Assembly (NCBI GenBank): GCA_903847405.1
Contig: CAINDP010000201.1
Coordinates: forward strand, 1 to 48,941
DNA: 48,941 bases
Reading direction: 5' to 3'
Origin: an uncultured Myxococcales bacterium
GTDB lineage: Bacteria; Myxococcota_A; UBA9042; DTJE01
Notes under the pieces: model-generated
Database searches by the model: none
The model's input: only the letters and a program-made list of their open reading frames with translations
Told to the model about the DNA's origin: nothing
Part shown: one piece after another, positions 8,301 through 27,389 of the stretch
How the letters are laid out: each line of letters begins with the position of its first letter
Position numbering within the stretch: position 1 is the first letter of the stretch
Made by a program: the position numbers and the translations under genes

Positions 8301-8347
8301 ATCGCGGCGCTGGAAGCGGCCAGCCCCTGCCCGCGGACGAGGAACGG

Positions 8348-9750: not shown

Positions 9751-9802
9751 CCCTGCCGGGCGGGGCCGCGGCCCTGCCGCCTTCCAGGGATGGAGCAACC
9801 GC

Positions 9803-10566: not shown

Positions 10567-11514
10567 ATGACCGTCATCCGAACCGCGTTCCTCTTCCCCG
10601 GGCAGGGCTCCCAGACCGTGGGCATGGGGGCGGACCTGTTCCGGGAGGACGCCGCCGCCCGGCGCCTGTTCGAGGCGGCCAACGACGCGGCCGGGGCGGA
10701 CGTGACGGCCCTGTGCTTCAAGGGCCCCTTTGAATCGCTGTCCCGGACGCGGGTTCTGCAGCCCGCGATCACCGCCGTGAACCTGGCGTGCCGGGCCTGG
10801 CTGGAAGCCCACGGCGTGGTGCCGGACGCGGCAGCCGGGCACTCCCTGGGCGAACTGTCGGCCCTGGCCTGCACCGGGTGCGTCGCCGACGTGGACGCCG
10901 TGCGGCTGGCTGCAGCGCGCGGGAAGGCCATGGACGACGCGGCCACCGCCACACCCGGGACGATGATCGCCGTCGTGGGCCTGGAGGCTGCGGTCGTCAT
11001 CGCGGAAGCGGCGGCGCTGCTGGACCGCACCGAAGGCGGCGTGGCCAACCTGAACGGGCCGGACCAGATCGTGCTGTCGGGGACCACGGCCGCGATGGAC
11101 AAGGCCGCGGCCCACTTCGAATCCATGGGCGCCCGATGCGTGCCGCTGGCAGTGTCCGGCGCCTGGCACAGCGAAACGATGGCCCCGGCGGAAGCGCCGT
11201 TCCAGGCCGTGCTGGATCCGATCGAAATCGCGGCCCCCGCGCGCCGGCTGTACCTGAACGTCACCGGGGGCCCGTCCGATGCCCCGGACGCCATCCGCGC
11301 CGGCCTGGTGGGCCAGTTGCGCAACCCGGTCCGCTGGATGGACATCGTTCAGGGCCTGATGGCCGACGGCGTCACGCGGTTCGTCGAGGTCGGCCCCGGC
11401 AAGGTCCTCCGGGGCACCCTGCGCCGCATCTGGCCCGACGCCACCGCCTACGAGGTGTACTCGGTCGGCGATCTGGTCGCGATGAAGCGCCTGGCGGATT
11501 CCTGGAAGGCCTAG
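10567..11514 (+). CDS. fabD: Malonyl-CoA:ACP transacylase
   Basis: A 315-residue transacylase. It has LFPGQGSQ near the start, nucleophile Ser93 in GHSLGE, the conserved Arg region AARGKAM near 118, and His201 in GAWHSETM. It loads malonyl groups from CoA onto ACP, supplying extender units. GGAGGATCG immediately precedes the ATG. Its presence as the last gene of the ACP operon suggests the locus does not rely solely on the fatty-acid synthase FabD. All key residues are present. It may be the only copy in the genome or a pathway-dedicated one; the window cannot tell. It converges with the DUF6544-like gene 25 bases further on, and no clear terminator is visible. Confidence 0.93.
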   Translation: MTVIRTAFLFPGQGSQTVGMGADLFREDAAARRLFEAANDAAGADVTALCFKGPFESLSRTRVLQPAITAVNLACRAWLEAHGVVPDAAAGHSLGELSALACTGCVADVDAVRLAAARGKAMDDAATATPGTMIAVVGLEAAVVIAEAAALLDRTEGGVANLNGPDQIVLSGTTAAMDKAAAHFESMGARCVPLAVSGAWHSETMAPAEAPFQAVLDPIEIAAPARRLYLNVTGGPSDAPDAIRAGLVGQLRNPVRWMDIVQGLMADGVTRFVEVGPGKVLRGTLRRIWPDATAYEVYSVGDLVAMKRLADSWKA

Positions 11515-13655: not shown

Positions 13656-13825
13656 CGGGCTCCCGGGCTTCAACGGGGGAAGGCTGCCCCCGGCCGTTGC
13701 GGATGTCAATCCGATTCGGCTTCCCGGGCCGGCGGCGCTGCCCTGTCAACGCGAACGCAGATTTTTCTTGGCAACCGGGCAAAGGTTGGTCAAAGTCCCC
13801 AATCGTTGAGCCGGGAGACCCGACG

Positions 13826-15046
13826 TTGAAGTTCCTCCTTGTCTTTCCCTCGTGGCCGAAGCTGGAGCACCAGACCCTCTTCAACCTGCCCCCGCACGGC
13901 TCGGTGGTGATGGCGGCCGCCATTCCCGCCGGGGTCGAGGTCAGGTTCGTCGACGAGAACGTGCAGGAAACGCCGTTTTCGGACGAGTGGGACTTCGTCG
14001 GCCTTTCGGTCATGCTGACCTCGCAGTTGCCGCGGGCCTTCGAGGTCTGCCGGCGCTTCCGCGAGATGGGCAAGGACGTGATCTTCGGCGGCATCGCCTC
14101 GATGCTGCACGCCGAGGAAGTGCAGAAGCACGCCAGCAGCCTGTTCCTGGGCGAGGCGGAAGGCCGCCTGGAGGCCGTGTTCGCGGATCAGGCCGCCGGG
14201 AAGCTGAAGCCGCTGTACGATTTCCTGACCGAACACGCGCCGATCGAGTCGGTGGGACCCGCACGACGCTCGATCCTCGACCCGTCGTGCTACGCGCACA
14301 AGGGCGTGCGGATGGCCGACCTGTTCCACGCCTCCCGCGGCTGCCGCTTCAACTGCTTTCCCTGCTGCACGCCGTACCTGGGCGGCCGGAAGTTCCGACC
14401 CCGGCCCATGGAGCGGGTGGCCGAGGAGCTTTCGCTGATCGACAACGATCGGCTGTTCGTCGTCGACAACTCGCTGGCGCAGGACAAGGAGTGGGAAAAG
14501 GAACTGTTCCGGACCATGATCCCCTTCAAGAAGCACTGGTGCAGCCATCCCATCGAGGATGACGACGAGGTCCTGGCCCTGGCGGCAGAGGCCGGGTGCT
14601 GGTACGTGTACCAGGCCGTGTTCGACACGTCCGACTACATCCGGAACCGGATCAAGCGCTACAAGAGCTTCGGCATCGGGGTCGAGGGGACCATCATCCT
14701 GGGGCTGGACAACCACGACGAGGACGCGATCAAGCGGCTGGTCGATTTCCTGCTGGAGGTCGATCTGGACCTGGCGGAATTCACGGTCCTGACGCCCTTT
14801 GCGCACACGCCGGCCCGCGATCAGATGGAAAAGGAAGGCCGCATCCTGACCAACGACCTGGCGCTGTACAACGGCGGCAACGTCGTCTACCAGCCGAAGC
14901 TGATTTCGCCGTCGCGGCTGCAGGAGATGTACCACTGGGCCTGGGAGACCTTCTACGCCGACGAGTCCCAGACCTACAAGATGTACCGGCTGTACAAGTC
15001 GATCCGCGATCAGACGCCACGCCCCGGCCGCAGGCGCCCCGTGTAG
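13826..15046 (+). CDS. B12-binding-type radical SAM protein (first)
   Basis: A 406-residue protein. The first 150 residues resemble a cobalamin-binding fold (LLVFPSWPK start, DFVGLSVMLTSQLPRAF, VIFGGIASMLHAEE), though the classical DxHxxG motif is not evident. The radical SAM motif is CRFNCFPC with Cys173, Cys177 and Cys180, followed by the usual barrel. No ATG or GTG fits. A TTG at 13826-13828 with GGGAG eight bases upstream starts exactly at the conserved first strand, so I take TTG as the start. Class B radical SAM enzymes methylate unreactive carbons or form rings. It stands alone on the plus strand between two minus-strand blocks of the polyene locus; a role in tailoring the chain is inferred. 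Confidence 0.87.
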   Translation: MKFLLVFPSWPKLEHQTLFNLPPHGSVVMAAAIPAGVEVRFVDENVQETPFSDEWDFVGLSVMLTSQLPRAFEVCRRFREMGKDVIFGGIASMLHAEEVQKHASSLFLGEAEGRLEAVFADQAAGKLKPLYDFLTEHAPIESVGPARRSILDPSCYAHKGVRMADLFHASRGCRFNCFPCCTPYLGGRKFRPRPMERVAEELSLIDNDRLFVVDNSLAQDKEWEKELFRTMIPFKKHWCSHPIEDDDEVLALAAEAGCWYVYQAVFDTSDYIRNRIKRYKSFGIGVEGTIILGLDNHDEDAIKRLVDFLLEVDLDLAEFTVLTPFAHTPARDQMEKEGRILTNDLALYNGGNVVYQPKLISPSRLQEMYHWAWETFYADESQTYKMYRLYKSIRDQTPRPGRRRPV

Positions 15047-15062
15047 GCCCCCCATCCACCGC

Positions 15063-15902
15063 CTATGCGTCCAGGTACCCGTATTTCGCATCACCCTCGG
15101 CCACGGCCTTCTGAATCCGGTGCCGGACCTCGACCAGCAGGTCCGACGAGCGGGTGCCGGGCGTGGGGACGATGTCGGCCAGGACGCGCAGCCGGTAGGT
15201 GCAGCGGCGGGCGGAGTTGATGCTGGCCGTGCCCTGGGGCATGAAGCGGGTGTCGGTGTGGATCGCGACGGGAATCAGCGGAACACCGGCGTCCTTCGCC
15301 AGGTGGAAGGCGAAGTCCCGGAAGGGCAGCAGGCGGCCGTCGGGGCTGCGCGTTCCCTCGGGGAAGATGACCAGCGGGCGGCCTTCCGCCAACAGCGCAC
15401 GGCACCGGTCCAGCGTGTTCTTCAGCGCCTCGCGATCGTTCCAGACCGGGGGCATGGGCACATAGCCCAGCAGCGAGAAGGGCGCCGCGATGAACGGCTT
15501 CCAGAAGTCCGGCATCGCGTTGCGCGGCTGGTCCTCGGGAGGCTTTTCCATGGGCTTCAACAGGCACGAGGCGTCGGGCAGCAGCCACATCAGGATCAGC
15601 ACGTCCATCATCGTGCGGTGGTTCGCGACGACGACCGCCGGACCCCCGCGACGCAGGCGCTCGACGCCGGCAATCTCGGCGATCCGCAATGCGCCGGTGG
15701 CCGAAAGCGACCGTACGAGCACGCCGTAGAAGCCCCGGGTGAAGGCCCGCATGGGGCGCAGGACGGCGGGGAACGGCCGCGACAACAGGCGTACCGGCAC
15801 GTACAGCACGAACGTGAAGGCCAGCCCCACGAAGGCCCACACGGTGTAGAACACCAGGGTATGAAAGACGCTGCGGATGCGGCGCGAACGTGCGGCGGTC
15901 AT
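15063..15902 (-). CDS. 1-acyl-glycerol-3-phosphate acyltransferase (PlsC)-like, ApeD-like
   Basis: A 279-residue membrane acyltransferase. Two N-terminal hydrophobic stretches (FHTLVFYTVWAFVGLAFTF) precede the PlsC motifs: NHRTMMD (H-x4-D catalytic motif), FPEGTRSPDG and the later VPLIPVAI. Aryl polyene clusters carry such a protein (ApeD), thought to move the acyl product to a lipid acceptor. It is the last gene of the nine-gene minus operon 15063-23943, and its ATG overlaps the stop of the flavodoxin-like gene. All motifs are intact. It could instead be a general phospholipid acyltransferase, but its operon position favours a pathway role. Confidence 0.9.
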   Translation of the reverse strand: MTAARSRRIRSVFHTLVFYTVWAFVGLAFTFVLYVPVRLLSRPFPAVLRPMRAFTRGFYGVLVRSLSATGALRIAEIAGVERLRRGGPAVVVANHRTMMDVLILMWLLPDASCLLKPMEKPPEDQPRNAMPDFWKPFIAAPFSLLGYVPMPPVWNDREALKNTLDRCRALLAEGRPLVIFPEGTRSPDGRLLPFRDFAFHLAKDAGVPLIPVAIHTDTRFMPQGTASINSARRCTYRLRVLADIVPTPGTRSSDLLVEVRHRIQKAVAEGDAKYGYLDA

Positions 15903-17347
15903 GCCTGCCCCCGTTCCCGGCGCAGGACGTCCAGGCGATGGGCGTGACGCAGTTCCCCCTTGCGCCGACCGCCGTCCAGCATCGCGCGGAAGAAGCGCTG
16001 CGAATGGGCCAGCAGGCGGAATCCGAAGTGCCGCCACCGGGAGCGGTCCTGCAGCAGTCCGTTCACCCGGTGATAGCGGTAGTCCGCCCGCAGGAAGAAC
16101 GACCACCGCAGGGCCATGTCCCGGAACGCCAGGCGCGATGCCGTGACCGAATACCGATCCGATTCGTCCACACCCTCGTCCATGGCCCGCTCCAGGCGCC
16201 GGATTTCCAGGGCCACGGCCTGCCGGCGCACCTGCGGATCCGGGGGCGCGTCGGTCCAGCGCCCCACCACGCGAATCCCCGTCAGCGACAGGAACAGCGC
16301 CAGATCGTCGCCCGCGAGGTCGGCAACGGGGCCGCCCCGCACCACGGCCACCGCGCCGGGAATCCCCGTGAAGGGCGGGCGGTGGCAGTCGCCCCACATC
16401 CGCTCGGCCAGGCGCCGCAGTGCCAGGTCCGGCATCGCCGCACCGGCGCGCGACACGACGACGACGGCGCCCGCACGGGCCATGCGGCCGCGGATCGCCT
16501 GCAGGGCGTCGGGCTGCACGCAGCGCCCGGCCACCTCGCGGTTGCACGCATAGCATCCCGTGCAATGACGCAACCGGACCCGCGCCAGGTCCGCGACCTC
16601 CACCGGGCGCGTGGCCGCATCGCGGATGGCGTCGATGGTTTCGGCGACCGCCGGATCGGCGTCGGGCGAGGTGCCCGTCAGGACCAGGATCGGCGAGGGG
16701 CCGGCGGGCATCATGGACAGATCCGGGCCGGAGGACGCGGGCTCCCACGGCGGATCGGAACGTCCGGGTCCCCGATCGGGCCCGGGCGCCAGCACCTGGC
16801 GATCGATGGGAAGGGAACGGGCCGGCGGCACGGGCGCGCCCTGGACGACGTCCGCAATCTCGCCGGCGATCCTCTTGGCCTGGAGCACCACCGCCCTGCC
16901 CCGCTCGAAACCGGTCACGGGGTTGCCCAGGACAGACGCGTCGCCGATCCATCCGAATCCCAACTGCTCGGACATCAGGCGCACGCGATCCAGCACCCGG
17001 TCGTCCTGGAACTGGGCGGAGGTGAGCAGCGCCACGACGCCCCGTCCGGCGAAGTCCGTCGGCACCGTCTTCGCCAGCAGGCGGTCGAGCAGCAGGCGCA
17101 TCCCCGACGGCACGCCGAAGGTGTAGAGGCCCAGCACCCACACCACGACCCGGGCGGACTGCATGCGCCCGACGAGGTCCTCGAAACGCAGGTCCGACGC
17201 CGGGTCGTCCTCCTCCAGGCCCAGGTCGCCCAGCAGGATGCGATCGACGTCGGTCCCGGCCGGCAGCGCCGCCTCGACGTACTCCGAAAACCACAGGCTG
17301 GAGGACTGGCGCCCCCGCGGGCTGGCACACACGAACAGCACGCTCAT
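15899..17347 (-). CDS. Tandem flavodoxin-like protein with iron-sulfur flavoprotein-like C-terminal half
   Basis: A 482-residue protein made of two flavodoxin/FMN-reductase-like domains joined by a Pro-rich linker at about 175-215. Domain 1 starts MSVLFVCASPRGRQSSS, with the phosphate-binding loop for FMN. Domain 2 starts ILVLTGTSPDAD and contains C-x2-C-x2-C-x7-C (Cys262, Cys265, Cys268, Cys276; CTGCYACNREVAGRC), the arrangement of iron-sulfur flavoproteins that bind FMN and a 4Fe-4S cluster. It could be an electron-transfer protein. In the same operon are the BadF-type ATPase and HgdB-like iron-sulfur protein, which need a low-potential donor; that link is inference. Its last 130 residues, basic and rich in Arg, are unassigned. 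Start and stop overlap both neighbours by four bases. Confidence 0.85.
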   Translation of the reverse strand: MSVLFVCASPRGRQSSSLWFSEYVEAALPAGTDVDRILLGDLGLEEDDPASDLRFEDLVGRMQSARVVVWVLGLYTFGVPSGMRLLLDRLLAKTVPTDFAGRGVVALLTSAQFQDDRVLDRVRLMSEQLGFGWIGDASVLGNPVTGFERGRAVVLQAKRIAGEIADVVQGAPVPPARSLPIDRQVLAPGPDRGPGRSDPPWEPASSGPDLSMMPAGPSPILVLTGTSPDADPAVAETIDAIRDAATRPVEVADLARVRLRHCTGCYACNREVAGRCVQPDALQAIRGRMARAGAVVVVSRAGAAMPDLALRRLAERMWGDCHRPPFTGIPGAVAVVRGGPVADLAGDDLALFLSLTGIRVVGRWTDAPPDPQVRRQAVALEIRRLERAMDEGVDESDRYSVTASRLAFRDMALRWSFFLRADYRYHRVNGLLQDRSRWRHFGFRLLAHSQRFFRAMLDGGRRKGELRHAHRLDVLRRERGQA

Positions 17348-18018
17348 GGGTTCCCTCCCGGCGGCGACCAGCGTCCCAGCAGGCGGGCCAACACACGATC
17401 ATGCCACGCCCCGCCGAAGCGGCCGAAGCGGGCCTTGCGCACCAGGTATTCCCCCGCGAACAGCAGGCCCATCAGGACGTAGGCGATGCCGCCGGCGTAC
17501 AGGGCCCAGGCCTCGACCGAGCCCCAGAGCACCAGGGCCTCGGCGATGGCGGCGTTCCCCACCAGAAAGACGATCCAGACCCACGTCACGGCCCGACAGT
17601 GGCGGATTTCGCCCTCCGACAGATCCGGCGTGATCATGCGCGCATAGCGCTCGATCATCGGCGGGGGCCGGACCAGGCTGGCGACGAATGTCACCAGGAG
17701 CAGCGCGCTGATCAGGACGGGCATCTGCTGCAGGAATGCCGGGCTGCCGGACACCAGGGTCCCCAGGGACAGCAGCGCGATTCCACCGACCTGCAGCATC
17801 AGCGAGCGGAACCCCTGCTGGCCGAACCGGCGCGCCCGGAAGCCCCACAGCGCCAGCGAGCCCAGGACGAGGCCCGCGGTGGACCGTGCGCCCCACTGGG
17901 TCAGGGCGACGTACACCAGGAAGGGATAGACGACGAAGAGGGCGCCCACGAGGACGCCGACAAGGGACGTCCTGATGGTGCCGGTTCGAGGGGGTGCTTC
18001 CGTCCGGACGTCGGGCAT
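17344..18018 (-). CDS. COG4648-type membrane protein, ApeG-like
   Basis: A 224-residue protein with about six predicted transmembrane helices, starting LVGVLVGALFVVYPFLVYVA and ending AGGIAYVLMGLLFAGEYLVR followed by a basic tail. This C-terminal pattern is characteristic of the COG4648 family found next to ACP genes in aryl polyene clusters (ApeG). Its molecular role is not established. Here, too, it lies next to an ACP (27 bases upstream) and overlaps the flavodoxin-like gene by four bases. Length is as expected for the family. Confidence 0.85.
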   Translation of the reverse strand: MPDVRTEAPPRTGTIRTSLVGVLVGALFVVYPFLVYVALTQWGARSTAGLVLGSLALWGFRARRFGQQGFRSLMLQVGGIALLSLGTLVSGSPAFLQQMPVLISALLLVTFVASLVRPPPMIERYARMITPDLSEGEIRHCRAVTWVWIVFLVGNAAIAEALVLWGSVEAWALYAGGIAYVLMGLLFAGEYLVRKARFGRFGGAWHDRVLARLLGRWSPPGGNP

Positions 18019-18045
18019 GGGCCTCCCTGGGCGCGGGGGCCGGAC

Positions 18046-18318
18046 TCAGACGGTTCCGGCCAGGCGCTGGCGCACGAGGTCGGCCAGGGTGGCGATGGAG
18101 AAGAAGTACTTCTTCGTCTCCTTGTCGGGCTGGACCTTGATCGCGAAGCGCTTTTCGATCGCCATGGCGATTTCGAGGGCGTCGATCGAATCCAGACCCA
18201 GGCCGTCGCCGAAGAGGGGCGCGTCGTCCTGGATCTGATCCGCGGAGGTGTCGAGGTTCAGGGCCTCGACGATCACGCGCTTGATTTCGCCGTTCAGGTC
18301 CGCGGGGATGTCCGCCAT
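18046..18318 (-). CDS. Acyl carrier protein (second copy), ApeE/ApeF-like
   Basis: A 90-residue ACP with GDGLGLDSIDALEIA and phosphopantetheine Ser44. The spacing from the start and the sequence after helix II (IEKRFAIKVQP and KKYFFSIATL) match the ACPs of aryl polyene clusters. GGAGGACTGAC precedes the ATG at 18316-18318. It is one base from the end of acpS, so the carrier and its activating enzyme are translated as a unit. It differs enough from the ACP at 8348 that the two may carry different intermediates, as ApeE and ApeF do. Confidence 0.93.
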   Translation of the reverse strand: MADIPADLNGEIKRVIVEALNLDTSADQIQDDAPLFGDGLGLDSIDALEIAMAIEKRFAIKVQPDKETKKYFFSIATLADLVRQRLAGTV

Positions 18319-18319
18319 G

Positions 18320-18742
18320 TCAGTCCTCCGAGTGTTCACCGGCGACGCCACCGCTGTCGCCGTTCCTGGGCATCGTCTCAACAATCACGAACGCGATGGC
18401 ATGATCGCCCGCGTGGGACAGGGACAGGTGCACCCGCCCGCGCGACGCCGCCACCAACCGGGCCGCCTCGCCGTTCAATGCCACCGTGGGCGCCGCATCG
18501 GGGGAACGTTCCACCACGATGTCCCGGAAGTCCACGCCGGACCCCCAGCCCGTGCCCAGGGCCTTCATCACGGCCTCCTTCGCCGCGAACCTCGCCGCGA
18601 AGTGCTGGAAGGGGTGCGCCATCGAGCGGCAGTAGGCCGATTCGGACGGCGCGAACACCTTTTCTTCCAGCCCGGGGCTGCGTTCCATGCGCCGCCGGAG
18701 ATCCTCGATGACCACGATGTCGGTACCGACTCCGCGGACCAT
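18320..18742 (-). CDS. acpS: Holo-[acyl-carrier-protein] synthase-type phosphopantetheinyl transferase
   Basis: A 140-residue AcpS-family PPTase. Asp8 lies in VGTDIV and Glu56 in FAAKEAVMKALG, the magnesium-binding pair; the C-terminal strand HLSLSHAGDHAIAFVIVE is also typical. It transfers 4'-phosphopantetheine from CoA to Ser of apo-ACP. It is encoded directly before the second ACP. An upstream in-frame ATG would add ten residues, but MVRGVGTDIV is the usual family start. The 72-base gap upstream is the largest in the operon and follows an unusual palindrome in the acyl-CoA synthetase end. It probably serves the ACPs of this locus, though it could be the genome's general AcpS. Confidence 0.92.
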   Translation of the reverse strand: MVRGVGTDIVVIEDLRRRMERSPGLEEKVFAPSESAYCRSMAHPFQHFAARFAAKEAVMKALGTGWGSGVDFRDIVVERSPDAAPTVALNGEAARLVAASRGRVHLSLSHAGDHAIAFVIVETMPRNGDSGGVAGEHSED

Positions 18743-18814
18743 GATTCCCGCCGTGCAAACGCCGCAGAACACCTGCGAAGGCGCCGGAAACGCTACCAGA
18801 CCGGGGCAAAGGCG

Positions 18815-20974
18815 TCAAGGCGCGCGCCTGCCCGCGAAAATGGGGACAGCCTCCGATTTCCGGAAATCGGAGGCTGTCCCCATTTCCCCCATTCCCGCCG
18901 TCCGGACCCGCACGTCCAGGGCGAAAACGCCCCGGCCCGCGGGGAGGACGGCGACCGGATTCAGGTCGATTTCGCGGACTTCCGGCAGGACCGACGCCAG
19001 CAGGGACAGGCGCACCAGCGCGTCGCCCAGGGCGTCGAGGTCGGCCGGTTCGCCGCCGGGACAGGCATCGAAGCGGTCCCGACCGCGCAGCGAGTCCGGC
19101 AGGCGCCGGGCCGCGACGGCATCCAGCGGCGCCAGGGCGAAGGCCACGTCGCGCGCCGATTCGACCGACACCCCGCCCAGCCCCGCCATCACCAGGGGCA
19201 CGCCGGGGGCCGGCACGACCACGCCCAGGATCGCCTCGACGCCGCCGGACACCTGGCGCTGGGCCAGCAGGGGCGCGCCCGGGAACCGCTCCCGGAGGGA
19301 CGCGGCGGCACGGGCCAGCGAGGCGAGGTCGGCGATCCCCAGGACCACGGCGCCCGCGGCGGACTTGTGCACCAGGCCGACCGGGTCGGCCTTCAGGACC
19401 AGGGGGAACCCCAGCGTGCGCGCGGCGATGTCCAGGTCCCCCGGCGTGGACAGCGGCACGACGGCCGCCGCCGGGATCCCCGCCGCGACCAGCAGCGCGT
19501 AGGCGTCCGCCTGGGACAGCCACCCGTCGGGGCCGGGCACTGCGCGCTGGAGCGCCGCCTGCACGCGGATCGCGTCCACCAGGCCTTCCGTCCCGCGAAT
19601 CGGGGGGCGCGCGCGAAACGCCGCCAGGCGCGCCATGGCAGCCATCGCCCGGGCCGCGTCCTCGGGAAACTCGAAGACCGGAATCCCGCCCGATTGCAGG
19701 CGGTCGACCACCCCGGCCCACCGCGCGTCCGTGATCACGTTCGCGACCACGGGCTTGTCCGACGCCGCAGCCGCCTGGACCACCGCGTCGGCAACCCCGT
19801 CGCAGTCCACGAAGAAGGGCGTGACCATCGACAGGACCAGGCCGTCCACCTCGGGTGCCGCCAGCAGCATCGACAGGGCCGCACGGAATGCGTCGGGACC
19901 CGCCGTCGCGGCCAGATCGACCAGGGGCCCCACGGTCGCGTAGGGCGATTGCGACGCCTTCAAGGCCGCCCGCGTCGCGTCGTCCGGGGACGCAGGTTCC
20001 AGCCCCAGGGCGCACGCCTCGTCCAGGGCCACGATCCCCGGGCCGCCCGCGTTGCTGACGACCGCCGTCCGCCGGCCCCGGGGCAGGGGCTGCCGTGCGA
20101 AGGCCGTCGCGGCCTGCACCGCCGCCTGGACCGAGGGCATGCGCAGGGCTCCGGCCCGATCCAGCACCGCGTCCAGGACCGCGTCCCCGGTCGCCAGCGC
20201 CCCGGTGTGGGAGGCGACGGCCCGGGCGCCGGCCGCGGTCCGGCCCGACTTCACCACCAGCAGCACCTTGTCCCGGGCCGCCCGCAGGGCCGCGTCCCGG
20301 AACGCCGCCAGGTCCCGCACGGACTCGAGGTCCAGCAGGATCACCCGGGTCCCGTCGTCGTCTGCCGCCGCGGCCAGCAGTTCCGACAGGTCCACGTCCG
20401 AGGCGTTGCCCGGGCTGGCATACCAGCGCAGGCCCACGCCCGCCCGGCGCAGGTGCAGGTTCATCAGTTCCGCGATCCCGCCGCTCTGGGCCAGGATCGT
20501 CACGGGCCCGGCCGCCAGCGGAGTGAACGTGAACGACGCGTACAGCCGCGTGTCCAGATCGCCGTTCATCACGCCCTGGGCGTTCGGTCCCAGCAGGCGG
20601 ATCCCGTGACTGCGGGCGACGGCCAGCACCCGGGCCTCCAGCGCAGCACCCTCGGGGCCGGCCTCGGCGAATCCCGACGAGTGGACGATCGCCGCCCGGA
20701 CGCCCGCCCGACCGCACGCCTCCAGGGCATCCGGCACGCGGTCGGCGCGCAGGGCGATGTTGACCAGGTCCACCGGTCCCGGCACGTCCGAAATCGCGGC
20801 GTAGGCGGGCAGGTCGCAGATCGTCGTTTCGCCGGGATGCACCGGGTAGATGCCGCCGGTGTACCCCGCATCCCGCAGGTTGCGGACGACCCGGTTGCCG
20901 ATGCTGAGTTCCTTCGTCGACGCTCCCAGAACCGCGACACCCCGGGGGCGGAACAGCGCATCCAGACTGCTCAT
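18815..20974 (-). CDS. ADP-forming acyl-CoA synthetase, fused alpha and beta subunits
   Basis: A 719-residue protein with the order CoA-binding domain (FRPRGVAVLGAS start), succinyl-CoA-ligase-like domain with the phosphohistidine motif SHTGAL at about 247, second ligase domain, and a C-terminal ATP-grasp domain (GIPAAAVVPLSTPGD, GFPLVLKADPVGLVHKS, EIDLNPVAVLP). Such enzymes interconvert acyl-CoA and acid plus CoA with ADP/ATP. Typical families include acetyl-, propionyl- and aryl-acyl-CoA ligases. It is translationally coupled to the BadF-type ATPase gene. After the normal end (VRVRTAG) the frame runs through a 48-base palindrome and adds MGTASDFRKSEAVPIF to the C-terminus. In this locus it may supply or recycle the CoA-activated starter; that is inference. 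Confidence 0.9.
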   Translation of the reverse strand: MSSLDALFRPRGVAVLGASTKELSIGNRVVRNLRDAGYTGGIYPVHPGETTICDLPAYAAISDVPGPVDLVNIALRADRVPDALEACGRAGVRAAIVHSSGFAEAGPEGAALEARVLAVARSHGIRLLGPNAQGVMNGDLDTRLYASFTFTPLAAGPVTILAQSGGIAELMNLHLRRAGVGLRWYASPGNASDVDLSELLAAAADDDGTRVILLDLESVRDLAAFRDAALRAARDKVLLVVKSGRTAAGARAVASHTGALATGDAVLDAVLDRAGALRMPSVQAAVQAATAFARQPLPRGRRTAVVSNAGGPGIVALDEACALGLEPASPDDATRAALKASQSPYATVGPLVDLAATAGPDAFRAALSMLLAAPEVDGLVLSMVTPFFVDCDGVADAVVQAAAASDKPVVANVITDARWAGVVDRLQSGGIPVFEFPEDAARAMAAMARLAAFRARPPIRGTEGLVDAIRVQAALQRAVPGPDGWLSQADAYALLVAAGIPAAAVVPLSTPGDLDIAARTLGFPLVLKADPVGLVHKSAAGAVVLGIADLASLARAAASLRERFPGAPLLAQRQVSGGVEAILGVVVPAPGVPLVMAGLGGVSVESARDVAFALAPLDAVAARRLPDSLRGRDRFDACPGGEPADLDALGDALVRLSLLASVLPEVREIDLNPVAVLPAGRGVFALDVRVRTAGMGEMGTASDFRKSEAVPIFAGRRAP
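18838..18885. repeat. Perfect 48-base palindrome (REP-like) at the 3' end of the acyl-CoA synthetase gene
   Basis: Two 24-base arms meet with no loop; the left arm begins AAATGGGGACAGCCTCCGAT and the right arm is its exact reverse complement. The core matches the repeat at 645-697. It is read through by the acyl-CoA synthetase frame and lies about 95 bases before acpS, so the hairpin could attenuate transcription within the nine-gene operon. Confidence 0.95.
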
Positions 20975-21759
20975 ACCGGCGCCCCTCCGTCGCGCATCGC
21001 CATCAGCGCGGCGCCCAGGGCCCCGGTCAACTGGGGCTTTTCCGGCACCAGGACCGGGCGCCCCAGCGCGGCTTCCAGGCGCCGCACCAGCACGCCGCCG
21101 GGCCGCGCCGCGCCGCCGGTCAGGACGATTCCGTCATGCAGAGGGGTCATTTCCACCACGCGCCGGACCACCGCGTCGTACACCCCCAGGGCGATGTCCT
21201 CGACGGATCGCCCGCCGCGGATCAGCGACAGCAGTTCGCTTTTCGCGAACACCGTGCAGAACGACGACAGGGCCACCGCGTCGTGCCCCCGCTCGGCCAG
21301 GGCCTCGAGGCCCGCCGGCGTGGTGTCCAGGCGCGCCGCCATTTCCTCCAGGAACGCCCCGGTACCGGACGCGCACCGGCGGTTCATCTGGAAGGACAGG
21401 CGCCGGCCGTCGTCGCCCAGCACGATGACCTTGGTGTCCTGCCCGCCCACGTCGATCACCGTCACGGCCCGCCGGAACAGGTGCCAGCCGGCCAGCGCCT
21501 GGCACGTCAGTTCCGTGACCGCGCCATCGGCGAAGGGGACGTTCTCGCGACCGTATCCCGTGGCGATCGTCCGCTCGATGCCGCCCAGCGCACCGGGAAC
21601 CGCGGCCAGCAGATCCGCCCGAAGGGCCTCGGCCACGGCCTCGAAGGCCACGCCCGTCCGTCGCACGACGTCCGCCGCCACCCTGCCCGCTCCGTCCAGC
21701 AGCACGGCCTTGGCGTACGAGGATCCGACATCGATTCCGCAGTAGAAGGGGCCGTTCAA
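20971..21759 (-). CDS. BadF/BcrA/HgdC-type ATPase (activator of 2-hydroxyacyl-CoA dehydratase or double-cubane protein)
   Basis: A 262-residue ASKHA-fold ATPase. CGIDVGSSYAKA is the phosphate 1 loop, VIDVGGQDTKVI the phosphate 2 motif, and VLTGGAARPGG the adenosine motif. Two cysteines, Cys129 in RRCASGTG and Cys168 in SSFCTVF, match those that bridge a single 4Fe-4S cluster between the subunits of HgdC-type homodimers. Such proteins use ATP hydrolysis to push electrons at very low potential into a partner iron-sulfur protein, here most likely the HgdB-like protein encoded just upstream. No ATG fits; TTG at 21759-21757 overlaps the upstream TGA and has GGAGG eight bases before it. All functional residues are present. 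Confidence 0.93.
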   Translation of the reverse strand: MNGPFYCGIDVGSSYAKAVLLDGAGRVAADVVRRTGVAFEAVAEALRADLLAAVPGALGGIERTIATGYGRENVPFADGAVTELTCQALAGWHLFRRAVTVIDVGGQDTKVIVLGDDGRRLSFQMNRRCASGTGAFLEEMAARLDTTPAGLEALAERGHDAVALSSFCTVFAKSELLSLIRGGRSVEDIALGVYDAVVRRVVEMTPLHDGIVLTGGAARPGGVLVRRLEAALGRPVLVPEKPQLTGALGAALMAMRDGGAPV

Positions 21760-22982
21760 GGCGATGCCTCCGCGCACTGTTCCACGAAGGCCTCCAGGGC
21801 CAGGCGCACGCCTTCGTCGGCGTGCAACCGCAGGTCGTTCAGGTCGCTGTGGACGATCACCGACGGAACGCCCGCCCCCGCGGCCAGCCGCCCCGGCATC
21901 CCGTACCGGCAGTTGCTGTTGTTGGGGCACGTCTTGGCGTCGTGGAACACCATCCCGTCCACGGAATAGCGGCGGGCCTCGTCGGCCAGGACGCGCTCCT
22001 TCACCGCGTCGGTGCGCGTGATGAACAGTTCCACCGAGGCGCGGGCCATGCTGTCGAAGGGCGCAGCCGGATCCAGCGCGTCGAAGACCCAGGACGAGCA
22101 GTACGTGGACCCGGCGACACAGGCGCCCAGGCGCGCCAGCAGGTCCGACACGTCCCGCAGGCGGCCCCAGATCGGCATGCCCTCCCAGTACAGGCGCACG
22201 CGCTCGCCCGGGACCGCCGCGACGCCCCGGGCGATCCGCCCTTCCAGTTCGGCCAGCAGGCCTTCGTAGTAGGCGGCGGACCGGGGGTCGCCCCGCAGGA
22301 TCACCGCCGGCCCCATGTGGATGCACGCGTCGAAGAAGGTCAGGGGCGACGGCCGCGCCGAACCGGTCGACAGCACGCGGCGCCACAGCAGCGACGTGTC
22401 CCGCGAAATCGCCACGGCGTCCCGCAGGCGCCCGGGATCCAGGCGCCGCCCGGCGATGGCCTCCAGGGGCGCCACCAGCCCGCGGATCTGCGAAGCCACC
22501 GCCGCCACCAGGTCGTCCGTGACCGCATCGACGCCCCGGGGCGCGGCCACGCCGATCACCGGCACGCCGAACTGGCGGCCGTAGAACGAAAACCAGTCCA
22601 CCACGTCCCGGCACTGGTTGGTGTCGTAGACCAGAACGTCGGGCCGCGGGACGGACGTGATCGATGGGTCCACCCGGGACAGGGCCGTGACGCCGCGGCG
22701 GAAGGCCCCGATGTCCGAGGTCATGTACGAGCAGACGTCGGGCGAGTAGCCTTCCGCGCTGGCGGCCGGGATCAGGTCGGTTGCCGCCCGGGACGCCCCC
22801 AGCATGGCCGCGTGGTTTTCGGGGAAGAAGACCGCGAATCCCAGCGCGCGCAGCAGTTCCACGGGGCCGACGCTGGTGCACCAGGCGACGCGCCCCTGGG
22901 GCGCCCGCGCCGCGGCATCACATTCCCGGAAGGCCTCCAGCATCAGGGCCTGCAGGCGCGCGGTCGATTCCAGGCGGGGCAT
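21756..22982 (-). CDS. HgdB/BcrC-family 2-hydroxyacyl-CoA dehydratase subunit or double-cubane-type protein
   Basis: A 408-residue protein of the 2-hydroxyglutaryl-CoA dehydratase/benzoyl-CoA reductase BcrB/BcrC family. Family motifs seen are WCTSVGPVELLRALGF near residue 34, YSPDVCSYMTSDIGAF, a NQCRD motif, LYWEGMPIWGRL and DAKTCPNNSNCRYG, giving many cysteines for Fe-S ligation. Classical dehydratases and class I benzoyl-CoA reductases need two different subunits of this family, but only one is encoded here, as in the double-cubane cluster protein pairs. With its ATPase partner it could carry out a difficult two-electron reduction or a radical dehydration. Its substrate is unknown; its operon position suggests an acyl-CoA, acyl-ACP or ring starter. 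Confidence 0.87.
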   Translation of the reverse strand: MPRLESTARLQALMLEAFRECDAAARAPQGRVAWCTSVGPVELLRALGFAVFFPENHAAMLGASRAATDLIPAASAEGYSPDVCSYMTSDIGAFRRGVTALSRVDPSITSVPRPDVLVYDTNQCRDVVDWFSFYGRQFGVPVIGVAAPRGVDAVTDDLVAAVASQIRGLVAPLEAIAGRRLDPGRLRDAVAISRDTSLLWRRVLSTGSARPSPLTFFDACIHMGPAVILRGDPRSAAYYEGLLAELEGRIARGVAAVPGERVRLYWEGMPIWGRLRDVSDLLARLGACVAGSTYCSSWVFDALDPAAPFDSMARASVELFITRTDAVKERVLADEARRYSVDGMVFHDAKTCPNNSNCRYGMPGRLAAGAGVPSVIVHSDLNDLRLHADEGVRLALEAFVEQCAEASP

Positions 22983-22992
22983 GGCGCGGCCC

Positions 22993-23943
22993 TCAGTGAT
23001 GGGGGATGTGCGACGGGACCGCTTCCAGGGACTGGACCAGGGCGCAGATGGCGCGGTTCAGGGGCACGTCCAGGCCCAGCCGATCCGCGGCCTCCACCAC
23101 CTTGCCGTTGATGTACGACACCTCGGTGGGGCGCCCGCGCAGCACGTCGATCAGCATCGACGGGGGGTGGTCCCCCGCCTCCAGCACGTAGCCCATGGAC
23201 GTCTCGAAAAACCCGTTGCCGCAATCGTACCCCAGCCGATCGCCGACCGCGATGCACTCGCTGAGGAGCCCCTGGGACAGACGCCGCAGTTCCTTGTGCG
23301 ACAGCGCCGTCCGCATGTTCATGCGCGTCAGGGCGCAGACGGGCGCCAGGATCGCGAGGTGCACCACCTTGCGCCACACGTGGATGCCGATGTCGGACGG
23401 GACCTCGGACCGCAGCCCGATCCGGGTCAGGAGGTCGGCGACGGTGCGGGCCCGGTCGTCGGGCGCGCCGTCCAGCGCCCCGACCCAGTTCGGCGGCTGG
23501 AAGAAGGTCAGGCGCACGCGGCCGGGCTCGTCCACCTGGCCCGCGAAGTTCACGACGCCGCGAACGAACCGCCCAAGGCCCACGGCGGGCACCAGGAGGT
23601 CCTCGATGCCCAGGCCGTTCTGGAGGCTGACCACGGTGGTCGTCGGACCCAGCAGGCGCGGCAGGTCCAGGACCAGGGTCGGAAGGTCGTTGGCCTTCAC
23701 GCAGACGAAGACGGTGTCGTAGGGGCCGGCGGCGGCGGCGTTCCGAACAGAGTCGTGGATGGCGTCCAGCATGGCAACCGGACCGGCGTCCCCGATCACC
23801 AGCAGGCCGACCTGCCGAGCGGACCGGGCCCGGGCCTCGCCCGACTCGACGGCCACGACGCGTTCGCCGGCGGCTTTCAGCCGGCAGGCGACGATGGCCC
23901 CCACCGGGCCCAGGCCGATCACGCAGTGGCTGCCAGCGCCCAC
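22993..23943 (-). CDS. Ketopantoate reductase (PanE/ApbA)-family oxidoreductase
   Basis: A 316-residue NAD(P)-dependent reductase. It begins with the Rossmann motif GLGPVGAIVACRL, continues with a KANDLPTLV segment and VVSLQNGLGIE, and has the C-terminal all-helical ApbA_C domain (HVWRKVVHLAILAPVCALTR). Family members reduce 2-oxo acids or 3-oxo compounds; the true PanE makes pantoate for CoA. GTG at 23943-23941 is used as start, with GGAG just upstream, because no ATG fits before the Rossmann strand. It is the first gene of the nine-gene minus operon, ten bases before the HgdB-like gene. It may supply a 2-hydroxyacid that the HgdB/BadF pair then dehydrates after CoA activation; the sequence permits this but does not prove it. 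Confidence 0.85.
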   Translation of the reverse strand: MGAGSHCVIGLGPVGAIVACRLKAAGERVVAVESGEARARSARQVGLLVIGDAGPVAMLDAIHDSVRNAAAAGPYDTVFVCVKANDLPTLVLDLPRLLGPTTTVVSLQNGLGIEDLLVPAVGLGRFVRGVVNFAGQVDEPGRVRLTFFQPPNWVGALDGAPDDRARTVADLLTRIGLRSEVPSDIGIHVWRKVVHLAILAPVCALTRMNMRTALSHKELRRLSQGLLSECIAVGDRLGYDCGNGFFETSMGYVLEAGDHPPSMLIDVLRGRPTEVSYINGKVVEAADRLGLDVPLNRAICALVQSLEAVPSHIPHH

Positions 23944-24208: not shown

Positions 24209-25288
24209 ATGCGTGCGAGTCCCCGGTTTGCCGGCATGGAGGTCGTCAGCGCCCTGGGCGCCGACCTGGAGGACTTCGACCGGGCCTTGCGAACCGGGGT
24301 CGGAGGACTGCGGGCCGAACCGGACGGCACGTTCCTGGGCCGGATGCCCCATCCCGACTGGGACGGTCCCGGCGATCCCCTGGCCGGATTCCTGGCGACC
24401 GTGCTGGCCGGAGCCTGCCGCCGGGCGGGCCAGGACGCGGGCGCCGTGCTGGCCGACCCGGACACCCTCCTGATCCTGTCCACGACCAAGGGGGACATCG
24501 CGGGACTGCTGGCGGGAGCAGGGGAAACCCGCCTGGGCCCGTTCCTGGGCCGCGTGCGCCGCGCCGCCGGCCACCGCGGACACGCCGAACTGGTGTCGGC
24601 CGCCTGCGCCAGCGGCGCCGTCGCGATCGCCCGGGCCGCCCGGTTGCTGGAAGCCGGGTGGGGACGGCGGGCCCTGGTCCTGGGGTTCGACCGGCTGGAC
24701 CCGTTCCTGGTCGCCGGCTTCCGCTGCCTGGGCGCGATGGGGACGTCGGCGTGCCGGCCCTACGACGACGACCGGGACGGCCTGTCGCTGGGCGAGGCTG
24801 CGGCCGCGGTGCTGCTGGTGGTCGATGACGCGCCCGGCGTGCGCCTGGCAGGCGCCGGCCTCGCGGGCGACGCCTTCACGATCGTGCGGCCCTGCGACGA
24901 CGGGTCCGGGCTGGCAGTGGCCATCGGGCGGGCACTGCAGGACGCCGACGACCCGGGCGTGGACGGCATCTGCGGGCACGGCACCGCCACGGTGGCCAAC
25001 GACGCCATGGAGGCAGCCGCCTTCCGCACGGCCTTCCCCGGGGCGATCCCGCCGGTCTTCGGCCTGAAGGGCGCCACGGGCCACACCCTGGGGGCCTGCG
25101 GCGTCCTGGAAGCGGTGGCCTGCGCCCTGGCGATCCGGGGTGGCGTCCTGCCGGGCACGGCGGGCTTTTGCGCGACGACCTCGGGCCTGGACGTGGCGTC
25201 CGCCCCGCGCGCGACATCACCACGACGGTTGCTGACCGTGAACGCGGGCTTTGGAGGGCTGAACGCGGCCCTGGTGCTGGAGGGATGA
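24209..25288 (+). CDS. Beta-ketoacyl-ACP synthase (second KS)
   Basis: A 359-residue ketosynthase, a little shorter than FabF. The triad is intact: Cys133 in AACASGAVA, His257 in HGTATVAND and His292 in KGATGHTLGACG. The C-terminal VNAGFGGLNAALVLE closes the thiolase fold. It should catalyse decarboxylative condensation. It starts the ten-gene plus-strand operon, and its TGA overlaps the ATG of a catalytically dead KS-like protein, so the two probably form a KS/CLF-like heterodimer. It is divergent from the KS at 6334. Two upstream residues could be trimmed by other starts, but ATG at 24209 gives a good family N-terminus. Confidence 0.9.
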   Translation: MRASPRFAGMEVVSALGADLEDFDRALRTGVGGLRAEPDGTFLGRMPHPDWDGPGDPLAGFLATVLAGACRRAGQDAGAVLADPDTLLILSTTKGDIAGLLAGAGETRLGPFLGRVRRAAGHRGHAELVSAACASGAVAIARAARLLEAGWGRRALVLGFDRLDPFLVAGFRCLGAMGTSACRPYDDDRDGLSLGEAAAAVLLVVDDAPGVRLAGAGLAGDAFTIVRPCDDGSGLAVAIGRALQDADDPGVDGICGHGTATVANDAMEAAAFRTAFPGAIPPVFGLKGATGHTLGACGVLEAVACALAIRGGVLPGTAGFCATTSGLDVASAPRATSPRRLLTVNAGFGGLNAALVLEG

Positions 25289-26025
25289 CCATGCGGCCGG
25301 TGTTCCTCCAGGCCGTCGCACTCGTCGATCGCCGGGACTTCGTGGGCCCCCGGGGCGTCGAAACCTGGAACCCCGACGGCGCCGACGTCGCGCCCGATCC
25401 CCGGCGCTTCTTCCCGGACCAGCCCCGCCTGGGCCGCCTGGACCTGCCCAGCCGTTTCGTCGTCTGCGCCGCGGGCCTGCTGCCGGCGCCCACGCCCGAC
25501 CTTCCGGACGCCACCGCCGTCCTCCTGGGCACGACCGCCGGCTGCCTGGACGCGGACCGGACCTTCGCGGCTTCGGTCGCCGAACGCCCGTCGCCGGCCA
25601 CCTATGCCCGGACCCTGCCCACCACGCCCGGTGCCGAACTGGCGATCCTTCGCGGGTACCGGGGACCCGACTTCGCTATCATCCAGGACGGCATCCCGGG
25701 CCTGGTGGCCATCGCCGCCGCCATCCAGGAGATCGCGTCGGGGGCCTGCGAAGCCGCGATCGCCGGGGAGTACGACGCGCTGGCGGGACCCGGAAGCGCC
25801 GGCAGCGCGGTGCTGTGCCTGCTGGGCTCCCTGCCTGCCGGGGACGGCCGCTCGCGACCGGTGACGCTGGTACGCAGGGCGGCGGACGGCGACGGCGCGC
25901 CGACGGGGCTGGAACTCCTGGTCCCGCGCTTTCAGGACAGTCCGGCCGGCGCGACGTTCGCGCTGGAAGGGACGGGGTCCGGTTCCCTGATCCGCCTGGA
26001 ATTCGGTCCGACGGCAACGAGGTGA
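25285..26025 (+). CDS. Ketosynthase-like protein without catalytic cysteine (CLF-like)
   Basis: A 246-residue protein resembling the N-terminal half of a ketosynthase. AVLLGTTAGCLDADRTFA aligns with the KS core strand, and IIQDGIPGLVAIAAAIQEI aligns with the KS segment that normally carries the Cys nucleophile; Cys is absent, as are the two catalytic histidines. Its length equals that of ApeC-type chain length factors. It overlaps the KS gene upstream (ATGA) and the radical SAM gene downstream (GTGA). The obvious reading is that it partners the KS at 24209. Similarity is clear in the mid region and weak elsewhere, so the label is functional inference. Confidence 0.75.
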   Translation: MTMRPVFLQAVALVDRRDFVGPRGVETWNPDGADVAPDPRRFFPDQPRLGRLDLPSRFVVCAAGLLPAPTPDLPDATAVLLGTTAGCLDADRTFAASVAERPSPATYARTLPTTPGAELAILRGYRGPDFAIIQDGIPGLVAIAAAIQEIASGACEAAIAGEYDALAGPGSAGSAVLCLLGSLPAGDGRSRPVTLVRRAADGDGAPTGLELLVPRFQDSPAGATFALEGTGSGSLIRLEFGPTATR

Positions 26026-27389
26026 CGGTGAAGGTCCTGCTGATCTCGGCCAACCCCGAACGTATCCCCAACCCGGTGTTCCCCATCGGGATGTCCTACG
26101 TGGCCCGTGCCCTGGAACCGGCGCACGAGGTTCGTCTGTGGGACTGCATCGTGGACGGCGAGGAGGGTCTGCCCGCGGCAATTCGCGCTTTCCAGCCTGG
26201 GCTGGTGGGCCTCAGCCTGCGGAACGTGGACACCCAGCGGCCCGACGGCCGGATCTTCCTGGGCGACTACCGGCGCGTCACGAGCCTCGTCCGGTCCGCG
26301 ACCGACGCCCCCCTGGTCCTGGGCGGCTCGGCCTTCACGCTGTTTCCCCAGCGCTACGTCGCCGAACTGGGCGCGGACTTCGGGATTGCCGGCGAGGGCG
26401 AACATCTGCGCCTGCTGGTGGACGCCCTGGCCGCCGGCATCGCCCCCGACGCCGCCGACGACGGCCGTGGCGTCCCGGGACTGGTCCGCCCCGGCCGTGC
26501 AGTCACGCCCCTGCGCAAGTGGGCCGGCCCCGTGGGCCATGCCGTCGCGTCGCACCGCCTGTTCGAGGCCTACGAAGCCTGCGGCGGCATGCTGAACCTG
26601 CAGACCAAGCGCGGCTGCACCATGCACTGCTGCTACTGCACCTACCCCATCGTCGAGGGCCGCCGCCTGCGACGGCACGACATCGAAACCCTCGTGGACG
26701 AGGTCGAGCGTTTGCGGGAGGCCGGGGCCCGCTACCTGTTCTTCGTGGACTCGGTCTTCAACCTGGACGTGGACCACACGACCGCCCTCGCCGAGGCACT
26801 GATCCGCCGGAACGTGAAGGTGCCGTGGGCGGCGTACATCGCCCCCTACCGCGTCACGCCGGCCTACGCGCGCCTGCTGCGGGAGGCGGGCCTGACCCAC
26901 GCCGAACTGGGCACCGAATCGCTGAGCGACCCGGTCCTGGAGGCCTACGGCAAGCCCTTCCGCGTCCGGGACGTCGTGGCGGCCCACGCGGCCCTGGGCG
27001 AGGCCGGCGTGCACCGGGCCCACTTCCTGCTGTTCGGCGGACCCGGCGAAACCCACGCCACCGTCGAGGAGACCCTCGCGACGTCCACGACCCTTCCGGA
27101 CTCGGTCTTCTTCCCGTGCATGACCATGCGGATCTATCCGGGGACGCCCCTCCACCGCCGGGCGGTGACCGAGGGCGTGGTGCGTGCCGACGACTCGCTG
27201 TTCGATCCCACGTTCTACTGTTCGCCCGCCGTGGACCCGGCCTGGTTGCAGACGCGTCTGGCGGAGGAAGCCGGCCGCCGCTTGAATTTCGTCCTGAACG
27301 ACACCTCCGAGGAGATGGCCGCGCTGGTCCGGCGCGCCCATGCCCGGGGCCGTGTCGTGGGGCCGATGTGGGAGTTCCTGTGTCGATGA
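26022..27389 (+). CDS. B12-binding-type radical SAM protein (second)
   Basis: A 455-residue protein with a cobalamin-binding-like N-terminal domain (VKVLLISANPE start, PIGMSYVARALE, GLVGLSLRNVD, LVLGGSAFTLFP, GIAGEGE) and a radical SAM core with CTMHCCYC giving Cys199, Cys203 and Cys206. The pattern GGSAFTLFP---ADFGIAGEGE is typical of class B proteins. The GTG at 26022 overlaps the TGA of the CLF-like gene; a second GTG two codons on is also possible. It is translationally coupled to a CLF-like and a fused KS gene on either side, so tailoring of an ACP-bound chain is likely. It shares little sequence with the radical SAM at 13826 outside motifs. Methylation, cyclisation or other chemistry cannot be distinguished. 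Confidence 0.88.
   Translation: MTVKVLLISANPERIPNPVFPIGMSYVARALEPAHEVRLWDCIVDGEEGLPAAIRAFQPGLVGLSLRNVDTQRPDGRIFLGDYRRVTSLVRSATDAPLVLGGSAFTLFPQRYVAELGADFGIAGEGEHLRLLVDALAAGIAPDAADDGRGVPGLVRPGRAVTPLRKWAGPVGHAVASHRLFEAYEACGGMLNLQTKRGCTMHCCYCTYPIVEGRRLRRHDIETLVDEVERLREAGARYLFFVDSVFNLDVDHTTALAEALIRRNVKVPWAAYIAPYRVTPAYARLLREAGLTHAELGTESLSDPVLEAYGKPFRVRDVVAAHAALGEAGVHRAHFLLFGGPGETHATVEETLATSTTLPDSVFFPCMTMRIYPGTPLHRRAVTEGVVRADDSLFDPTFYCSPAVDPAWLQTRLAEEAGRRLNFVLNDTSEEMAALVRRAHARGRVVGPMWEFLCR

Follow-up and report, generated by a model that had tools for sequence, protein, structure and literature searches.

The closest described relatives of the system presented here are the (R)-2-hydroxyacyl-CoA dehydratases, in which one activating electron is recycled over many turnovers. 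These include the (R)-2-hydroxyisocaproyl-CoA dehydratase HadB/HadC with its activator HadI (PDB entries 3O3M and 4EHT). Our subject is a HgdB-like protein, called HgdB below, encoded beside an ATPase (BadF), a reductase (PanE) and an NDP-forming acyl-CoA synthetase (ACD) in contig CAINDP010000201.1 of an uncultured Myxococcales bacterium. The whole stretch analysed, 48,941 nt, is referred to as the window and its genes are described relative to the forward strand. HgdB is a member of the dehydratase fold without a beta subunit and belongs to a conserved four-gene module, which has apparently been taken over to provide an aryl-polyene-type polyketide synthase (PKS) with its starter.

HgdB and its activator share with HadBC/HadI the fold, three cluster cysteines, the Ser37/Glu55 pair and the arrangement of a small activator with two cysteines. 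In contrast to HadBC, which is a heterodimer, the window has an alpha-type subunit only, with an additional invariant Cys35 and a near-invariant Cys295. The phenyllactyl-CoA dehydratase pathway of Clostridium sporogenes (FldA/B/C/I) resembles the system in the chemistry that we propose for it, from arylpyruvate through aryllactyl-CoA to cinnamoyl-CoA. The window differs in its single subunit, PanE-type reductase and biosynthetic setting and in its NDP-forming synthetase, where C. sporogenes uses the CoA transferase FldA.

The HgdB protein and its conserved module

The module comprises the following genes:

22993–23943, minus strand: PanE/ApbA-family reductase, 316 aa (PF08546 8.8e-28, PF02558 1.8e-23; TIGR00745 178 bits, over the cut-off)
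21756–22982, minus strand: HgdB-like alpha-type dehydratase, 408 aa (PF06050 4.8e-55)
20971–21759, minus strand: BadF/HadI-type ATPase activator, 262 aa, TTG start (PF01869 1.2e-36; TIGR00241 203 bits, cut-off 125)
18815–20974, minus strand: ACD, 719 aa (CoA_binding_2, Succ_CoA_lig, Ligase_CoA_2 and ATP-grasp_5 domains)

HgdB, BadF and ACD are joined by 4-nt overlaps. An earlier, sequence-only reading of this DNA had recognised one HgdB-like Fe-S protein, and HgdB is indeed the sole HGD-D gene of the window. PanE and ACD, which that reading overlooked, are the neighbours that give the HgdB/BadF module its meaning.

In profile comparisons with solved chains, HgdB scores 231 bits against HadB, 166 against MbdO, 118 against BzdO and 44 against DCCP. 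The AlphaFold2 model (pLDDT 89.9) gives the same order at its two ends, with TM-scores of 0.91 to HadB (27% identity), 0.88–0.89 to BzdO, 0.86–0.87 to MbdO and 0.75–0.76 to DCCP. Four cysteines (C35, C84, C124 and C352) are invariant in all 81 HgdB family members, as are S37 and E55, and C295 is found in 96%. C84, C124 and C352 align with the corresponding cysteines of HadB and with Cys95, Cys128 and Cys380 of BzdO, the ligands of its catalytic [4Fe-4S]-OH2 cluster (PMC11971306), and are the predicted [4Fe-4S] ligands of HgdB. S37 and E55 align with Ser37/Glu55 of HadB and Ser44/Glu65 of BzdO, where Glu65 hydrogen-bonds the iron-bound water (PMC11971306). HgdB combines an HGD-D fold and three cluster-type cysteines, as in the alpha subunit of HadBC, HgdAB and FldBC, with a serine/glutamate pair of the catalytic type found near the open iron site of HadB and BzdO. 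BzdO His131 corresponds to Val127 in HgdB, a difference that is not diagnostic since MbdO lacks this histidine too. HgdB thus has the fold and residues of an alpha-type 2-hydroxyacyl-CoA dehydratase.

The sequence-only reading had likened the single-subunit form to double-cubane protein pairs. In the pair DCCP/DCCP-R a lone HgdB-fold subunit likewise works with one ATPase. The [8Fe-9S] double-cubane cluster is ligated by six cysteines. Comparison of the modelled HgdB and its cysteines with both types of structure does not bear out this kinship and places the protein with the dehydratases. The double-cubane assignment is ruled out by the low similarity to DCCP (TM-score 0.75, 44 bits, against 0.91 and 231 for HadB), by a score of 33 bits with NF040772 (cut-off 350) and by the absence of the six conserved cysteines, HgdB having only four invariant ones and one conserved at 96%. 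C35 aligns with a serine in HadB and a cysteine in MbdO and is therefore not a double-cubane mark. Class I benzoyl-CoA reductases are four-subunit enzymes that include two distinct ATPase subunits and an electron-storing subunit of the BzdN/BcrC type. This assignment is disfavoured by the single HGD-D protein and single ATPase of the operon and by a TIGR02260 score of 119 bits (cut-off 487).

BadF is a cognate-type ASKHA ATPase (HadI E-value 3.4e-46) whose Cys129 and Cys168, already singled out by the sequence-only reading, align with the bridging-cluster cysteines of HadI and HgdC. Its conservation was followed, with that of the other neighbours, across the 50 related loci in which HgdB is flanked by 5 kb or more on both sides, using tblastn with the window proteins and a distance limit of 10 kb. 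BadF is found in 46 of these, ACD in 32, PanE in 27 and the flavoprotein of the window operon in one (L012). Relatives have PanE directly adjoining HgdB, and ACD at the side of the HgdB/BadF pair. Since BadF is adjacent, coupled and present in 46/50 loci, it very probably activates HgdB, as had been proposed; the HgdB/BadF pair is kept in homologous loci but the trio with the flavoprotein is not.

A total of 80 related loci (51–90% identity to HgdB) come from Myxococcota, Geobacterales, Acidobacteriota, Planctomycetota, Zixibacteria, Chloroflexota, Thermoplasmatota, Lokiarchaeota and others. Each includes exactly one match to the HgdB family HMM (80/80). No beta homologue was detected among the open reading frames of these loci with the window genome's own beta subunit as query, a scan that a very divergent beta could escape. 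For this reason we consider whole-genome PF06050 counts the cleaner test. There is a single HGD-D protein in each of four genomes: G001, a metagenome-assembled genome (MAG) of a congener, G015, G016 and G018. In the isolate Geobacter argillaceus (G007) there are three full-length HGD-D proteins, all of the HgdB family (711–764 bits), and one fragment of 110 residues. No intact HGD-D protein outside the HgdB family occurs in any of these five genomes. MAG incompleteness weakens the single counts, and the draft genome of the isolate is less exposed to it. A second HgdB-like subunit, a possibility that the sequence-only reading had raised, is thus not always encoded elsewhere: it is absent as an intact protein from G. 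argillaceus and from several MAGs, while the window genome has a separate alpha/beta pair.

There is thus good support for the HgdB family having no beta subunit of its own, and this sets it apart from the heterodimeric HadBC/HgdAB/FldBC class. HgdB otherwise behaves like the HadBC/FldBC class and is best named a single-subunit relative of it; it probably works as a homodimer. The literature searched held nothing relevant on dehydratases of one subunit, on phenyllactate routes in Geobacter or on dehydratases in connection with aryl polyenes.

The surroundings of the module in Geobacteraceae are informative about its substrate. In locus L090, BadF-HgdB-ACD are accompanied by genes for an IclR regulator, IorA (TIGR03336, over the cut-off), IorB, a PaaK-like ligase, PanE, a 3-hydroxyacyl-CoA dehydrogenase/enoyl-CoA hydratase fusion, a thiolase, Oah (TIGR03200) and Had (TIGR03201). 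This gene set reads as a route from phenylpyruvate through phenyllactate, phenyllactyl-CoA and cinnamoyl-CoA to benzoyl-CoA. A phenyllactyl-CoA dehydratase leading through cinnamoyl-CoA to benzoyl-CoA also appears, as a possible route, in a recent scheme for a benzene degrader (PMC13416013). The indolepyruvate oxidoreductase, PaaK-like ligase and benzoyl-CoA-pathway genes point to arylpyruvate substrates. In five Lokiarchaeota loci (L030, L060, L070, L077 and L079) a single-subunit HgdB lies near PanE, BadF, an acyl-CoA ligase, a thiolase and an aldehyde ferredoxin oxidoreductase-like protein.

The polyene cluster and its link to the module

Ordinary aryl polyene clusters obtain their starter through an ammonia-lyase, or from a chorismate-derived acid, together with an acyl-AMP ligase. 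The module of the window is surrounded by the following genes:

4367–7509, minus strand: FabG, ApeP-like dehydratase and two ketosynthase (KS) genes, at the far side of the cluster (PF13561, PF22817, PF13723, PF02801)
10567–11514, plus strand: malonyl-CoA:ACP acyltransferase (PF00698 3.7e-41)
18046–18318, minus strand: acyl carrier protein, ACP (PF00550 1.4e-10)
18320–18742, minus strand: AcpS-type phosphopantetheinyl transferase (PF01648 2.5e-19)
24209–25288, plus strand: KS, in the divergent polyene operon (PF02801/PF00109)
25285–26025, plus strand: short KS-like protein (PF00109 5.8e-07)
26022–27389, plus strand: B12-binding radical SAM protein of the ladderane-cluster family (TIGR04072 382 bits, cut-off 360)
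27386–29782, plus strand: fused double KS, a KS and a chain-length-factor-like half (PF00109/PF02801, fabF 471 bits)
29779–30135, plus strand: ApeI/FabA-like dehydratase (PF07977, PF22818)
30132–30899, plus strand: GT2 glycosyltransferase (PF00535 1.5e-14)
30929–31438, plus strand: 4HBT thioesterase (PF13279 9.8e-16)
31374–35071, plus strand: aryl-polyene-type export genes LolA, MMPL and DUF3261 (PF03548, PF03176, PF11659)

The polyene setting, noted earlier, is thus confirmed. Like aryl polyene and flexirubin clusters, the window carries multiple KS and chain-length-factor (CLF) genes, ApeP/ApeI-like dehydratases, FabG, ACP, acyltransferases and LolA-MMPL-DUF3261 export genes; AcpS and GT2 genes are there too. 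It differs from them in that no ammonia-lyase, acyl-AMP ligase or gene for a chorismate-derived acid as aryl starter was found among the window proteins scanned; the dehydratase module and a ladderane-type radical SAM gene are present. The only PF00221 protein of the window genome is HutH (671 bits, HutH cut-off 539). The ladderane and polyunsaturated-hydrocarbon clusters of Kuenenia and Desulfotalea (PMC2649909) also include a TIGR04072 B12 radical SAM gene and many divergent ketosynthases, but no HgdB/BadF module is reported there and the window has export genes of aryl polyene type. The radical SAM gene of the window, of a ladderane-cluster family but lying inside an aryl-polyene-type cluster, has orthologs in six genomes of the host family.

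The module lies within a polyene cluster in three congeners (the window, L012 and L099). In an Aminicenantes locus (L047) it follows genes for a radical SAM protein, GT2, an LpxL-type acyltransferase, ACP, KS, a KS-like protein, LolA and DUF3261, and in a deltaproteobacterial locus (L054) genes for a FabA-like protein, thioesterase, KS, ACP and KS. The polyene-linked HgdB proteins fall in at least two separate parts of a quick tree of the family. With a radical SAM ortholog of 64% identity or more as marker of the polyene cluster, HgdB is found in 6/6 genomes of the host family with the cluster and in 2/7 without it, both with a divergent HgdB (Fisher two-sided p 0.021, ignoring shared descent). 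In G031, G060 and G196 the module and the polyene genes are unlinked and lie on different contigs; in the first two, the operon from ketosynthase to DUF3261 is intact. Since G031 and G060 keep both on different contigs, the co-occurrence cannot be put down to linkage alone.

Two relatives without HgdB have a cluster of the same general type that includes a predicted aromatic ammonia-lyase, distinct from HutH. In G126 (locus L111, lyase at 8317–9846, 431 bits against the HutH cut-off of 539) it accompanies a TIGR04072 radical SAM gene (402 bits), LolA, FabG, KS, PlsC and a thioesterase, and in G206 (locus L127, lyase at 2–1318) a thioesterase, LolA, MMPL and a radical SAM gene. The lyase subfamily occurs in 44 of 284 Myxococcota genomes and the HgdB family in 13.

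A proposed route to the starter and its competitors

PanE-family enzymes include D-2-hydroxyacid dehydrogenases. In the route that we propose, PanE would act on a 2-oxo acid, with phenylpyruvate and 4-hydroxyphenylpyruvate as the likeliest candidates, and reduce it to the (R)-2-hydroxy acid, which ACD would convert to its CoA thioester. At the cost of ATP, BadF would load the cluster of HgdB with a single low-potential electron, and HgdB would then eliminate the 2-hydroxyl group via a ketyl radical to give (hydroxy)cinnamoyl-CoA, a 2-enoyl-CoA. The polyene type II PKS would take this as starter, to be extended by the KS set with malonyl units from the acyltransferase at 10567–11514. The module would in this way take the place that an ammonia-lyase has in the usual aryl polyene and flexirubin clusters. 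HgdB, having no separate beta subunit, would probably act as a homodimer docked on the homodimeric BadF activator, and electrons would come from a general ferredoxin or flavodoxin and not from the operon flavoprotein. The computations establish the family, the fold, the conserved residues, encoding as one subunit, the conservation of the module and its co-occurrence with the polyene cluster; the substrate, product, starter role, dimeric state and donor, like the individual catalytic steps, are proposed from family membership and genomic context. An acyl starter, the target suggested by the sequence-only reading, is supported as the most economical substrate.

We judge the chances about even that this oxygen-sensitive PanE/ACD/HgdB/BadF module makes a (hydroxy)cinnamoyl-CoA-type polyene starter with a beta-less enzyme and a general electron donor. 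We hold more tentatively, at somewhat below even, the wider proposal of a family of beta-less homodimeric aryllactyl-CoA dehydratases, extending from Geobacter to Asgard archaea, that was recruited for the cinnamoyl-type starter of a type II polyene in place of the ammonia-lyase. If correct, this would join the radical dehydratases of anaerobic amino-acid breakdown with polyene pigment biosynthesis, two subjects that no paper in the searchable literature treats together. It would provide an ammonia-lyase-free route to cinnamoyl-type starters in which an ATP-dependent ketyl-radical enzyme feeds natural product assembly. It would also give a testable function to a large and highly conserved family of single-subunit HGD-D proteins, known here from Geobacter, Asgard archaea, Thermoplasmata, Planctomycetes and other groups, and raise the question of whether ketyl-radical dehydration needs a beta subunit.

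Several observations weigh against this proposal. A beta-like subunit is encoded elsewhere in the window genome, on contig C21, and all characterised members of the HadBC-type dehydratase class are, to our knowledge, alpha/beta heterodimers. The probable aromatic substrate is assigned from gene neighbours, and the PanE and ACD families are broad in specificity. The nearest relatives of the module (L013–L015) are physically unlinked to polyene genes, and the genome counts are phylogenetically dependent. The phylum-wide exclusion of lyase and HgdB (overlap in 0/13 Myxococcota genomes; P 0.11) is consistent but not significant alone, and the likely specificity of the G126 and G206 lyases is read from family scores.

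The competing explanations are taken in order of decreasing probability. The same dehydratase chemistry might have an aliphatic or branched 2-hydroxyacyl-CoA as substrate, such as one derived from leucine, and give a branched 2-enoyl starter instead of an aryl one. HadB, the closest solved relative, acts on 2-hydroxyisocaproyl-CoA and PanE-type enzymes are broad, but the Geobacteraceae neighbours are aromatic-specific (IOR, PaaK-like, Oah and Had) and related clusters carry an aromatic ammonia-lyase, and we consider this substrate unlikely.

It is rather unlikely that the module is an amino-acid catabolic cassette which lies beside the polyene genes and takes no part in polyene synthesis. Most HgdB family members do occur in catabolic, non-polyene settings, and G031, G060 and G196 have the two loci on different contigs. 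Such a cassette is, however, difficult to reconcile with the absence of beta-oxidation or benzoyl-CoA genes beside the module among the window proteins scanned, with the independent co-location with KS or export genes in Aminicenantes and a deltaproteobacterium, and with the full co-occurrence with the polyene cluster in the host family.

An improbable third reading makes HgdB a reductase, of benzoyl-CoA-reductase-like or double-cubane-like type, acting on an aromatic or small-molecule substrate. The class I benzoyl-CoA reductase subunits MbdO and BzdO are the next closest folds (TM-scores 0.86–0.89) and the family occurs near dearomatisation genes in Geobacteraceae; HadB is nonetheless closer in both sequence and fold, no BzdN-type electron-storing subunit adjoins HgdB, the conserved cysteines are too few for a double cubane and the PanE partner suits a hydroxy acid. 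The replacement of BzdO His131 by Val127 also points away from a reductase, although this residue is not diagnostic, as MbdO lacks the histidine as well.

Contig C21 encodes a conventional alpha/beta/activator set, whose alpha subunit is 34% identical to HgdB, and HgdB could borrow this beta subunit to form an ordinary heterodimer. We regard this as quite improbable: the beta of C21 already comes with an alpha and an activator, the congener G001 (a MAG) has one HGD-D protein and the isolate G. argillaceus has no intact partner.

The remaining explanation, a dedicated chain from flavoprotein to ATPase to HgdB as envisaged in the sequence-only reading, concerns a second group of overlapping genes:

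17344–18018, minus strand: small membrane protein without Pfam match, conserved among the polyene-type clusters of relatives (homologs in L099, L120 and L122)
15899–17347, minus strand: two-half flavoprotein, 482 aa (PF03358, FMN_red, 7e-13, residues 1–136)
15063–15902, minus strand: PlsC-type acyltransferase (PF01553 1.9e-24)

The C-x2-C-x2-C-x7-C motif reported for the flavoprotein is present in its second half (C262-x2-C265-x2-C268-x7-C276) and is kept in its only close relative, L012. The description of a single translationally coupled operon holds only within two blocks of 4-nt overlaps, HgdB/BadF/ACD and membrane protein/flavoprotein/PlsC. These are separated by gaps of 72 nt between ACD and AcpS and 27 nt after ACP, and the flavoprotein is therefore not coupled to HgdB/BadF. 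In the collinear operon of the congener L099, the membrane protein gene (15808–16521) runs directly into PlsC (16518–17354) and the flavoprotein is absent. Of the other HgdB loci retrieved, L012 alone has the flavoprotein nearby, and full-length homologues occur in 2/284 Myxococcota genomes against 13 with HgdB. These absences rule out the flavoprotein as a conserved donor: it is an accessory, lineage-specific gene. Despite the shared operon and the Fe-S-flavoprotein-like motif kept in L012, a chain built on a protein missing from L099 and nearly all other module loci retrieved, and coupled to the membrane protein and PlsC instead of HgdB/BadF, is very improbable. The flavoprotein may have a redox role that concerns the polyene or its lipid, and the donor to BadF is probably a general ferredoxin or flavodoxin.

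Further features of the window and related loci

The polyene cluster of L099 includes, beyond PlsC, a second NDP-forming acyl-CoA synthetase (17396–19504), at the position that a radical SAM gene (13703–15046) occupies in the window. A GcvT-type aminomethyltransferase-like protein is encoded at 8653–9750, between polyene ketosynthase and FabG genes. In G107, another myxococcote, a TIGR04072-like radical SAM gene lies near a canonical-type HgdB and two BadF-type genes (L117, 15281–17820). A protein with PF04463 (2-thiouracil desulfidase/TudS-type) and DUF1722, encoded at 1480–2445, is a one-domain relative in the HgdB Fe-S fold class.

The window also includes two copies of a palindrome, at 18842–18881 and 652–691, which share the core GGGGAC...ATTTCCGGAAAT...GTCCCC and have different self-complementary arms. 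It looks like a REP-type mobile repeat, and the copy at 18842–18881 is translated as C-terminal codons of ACD.

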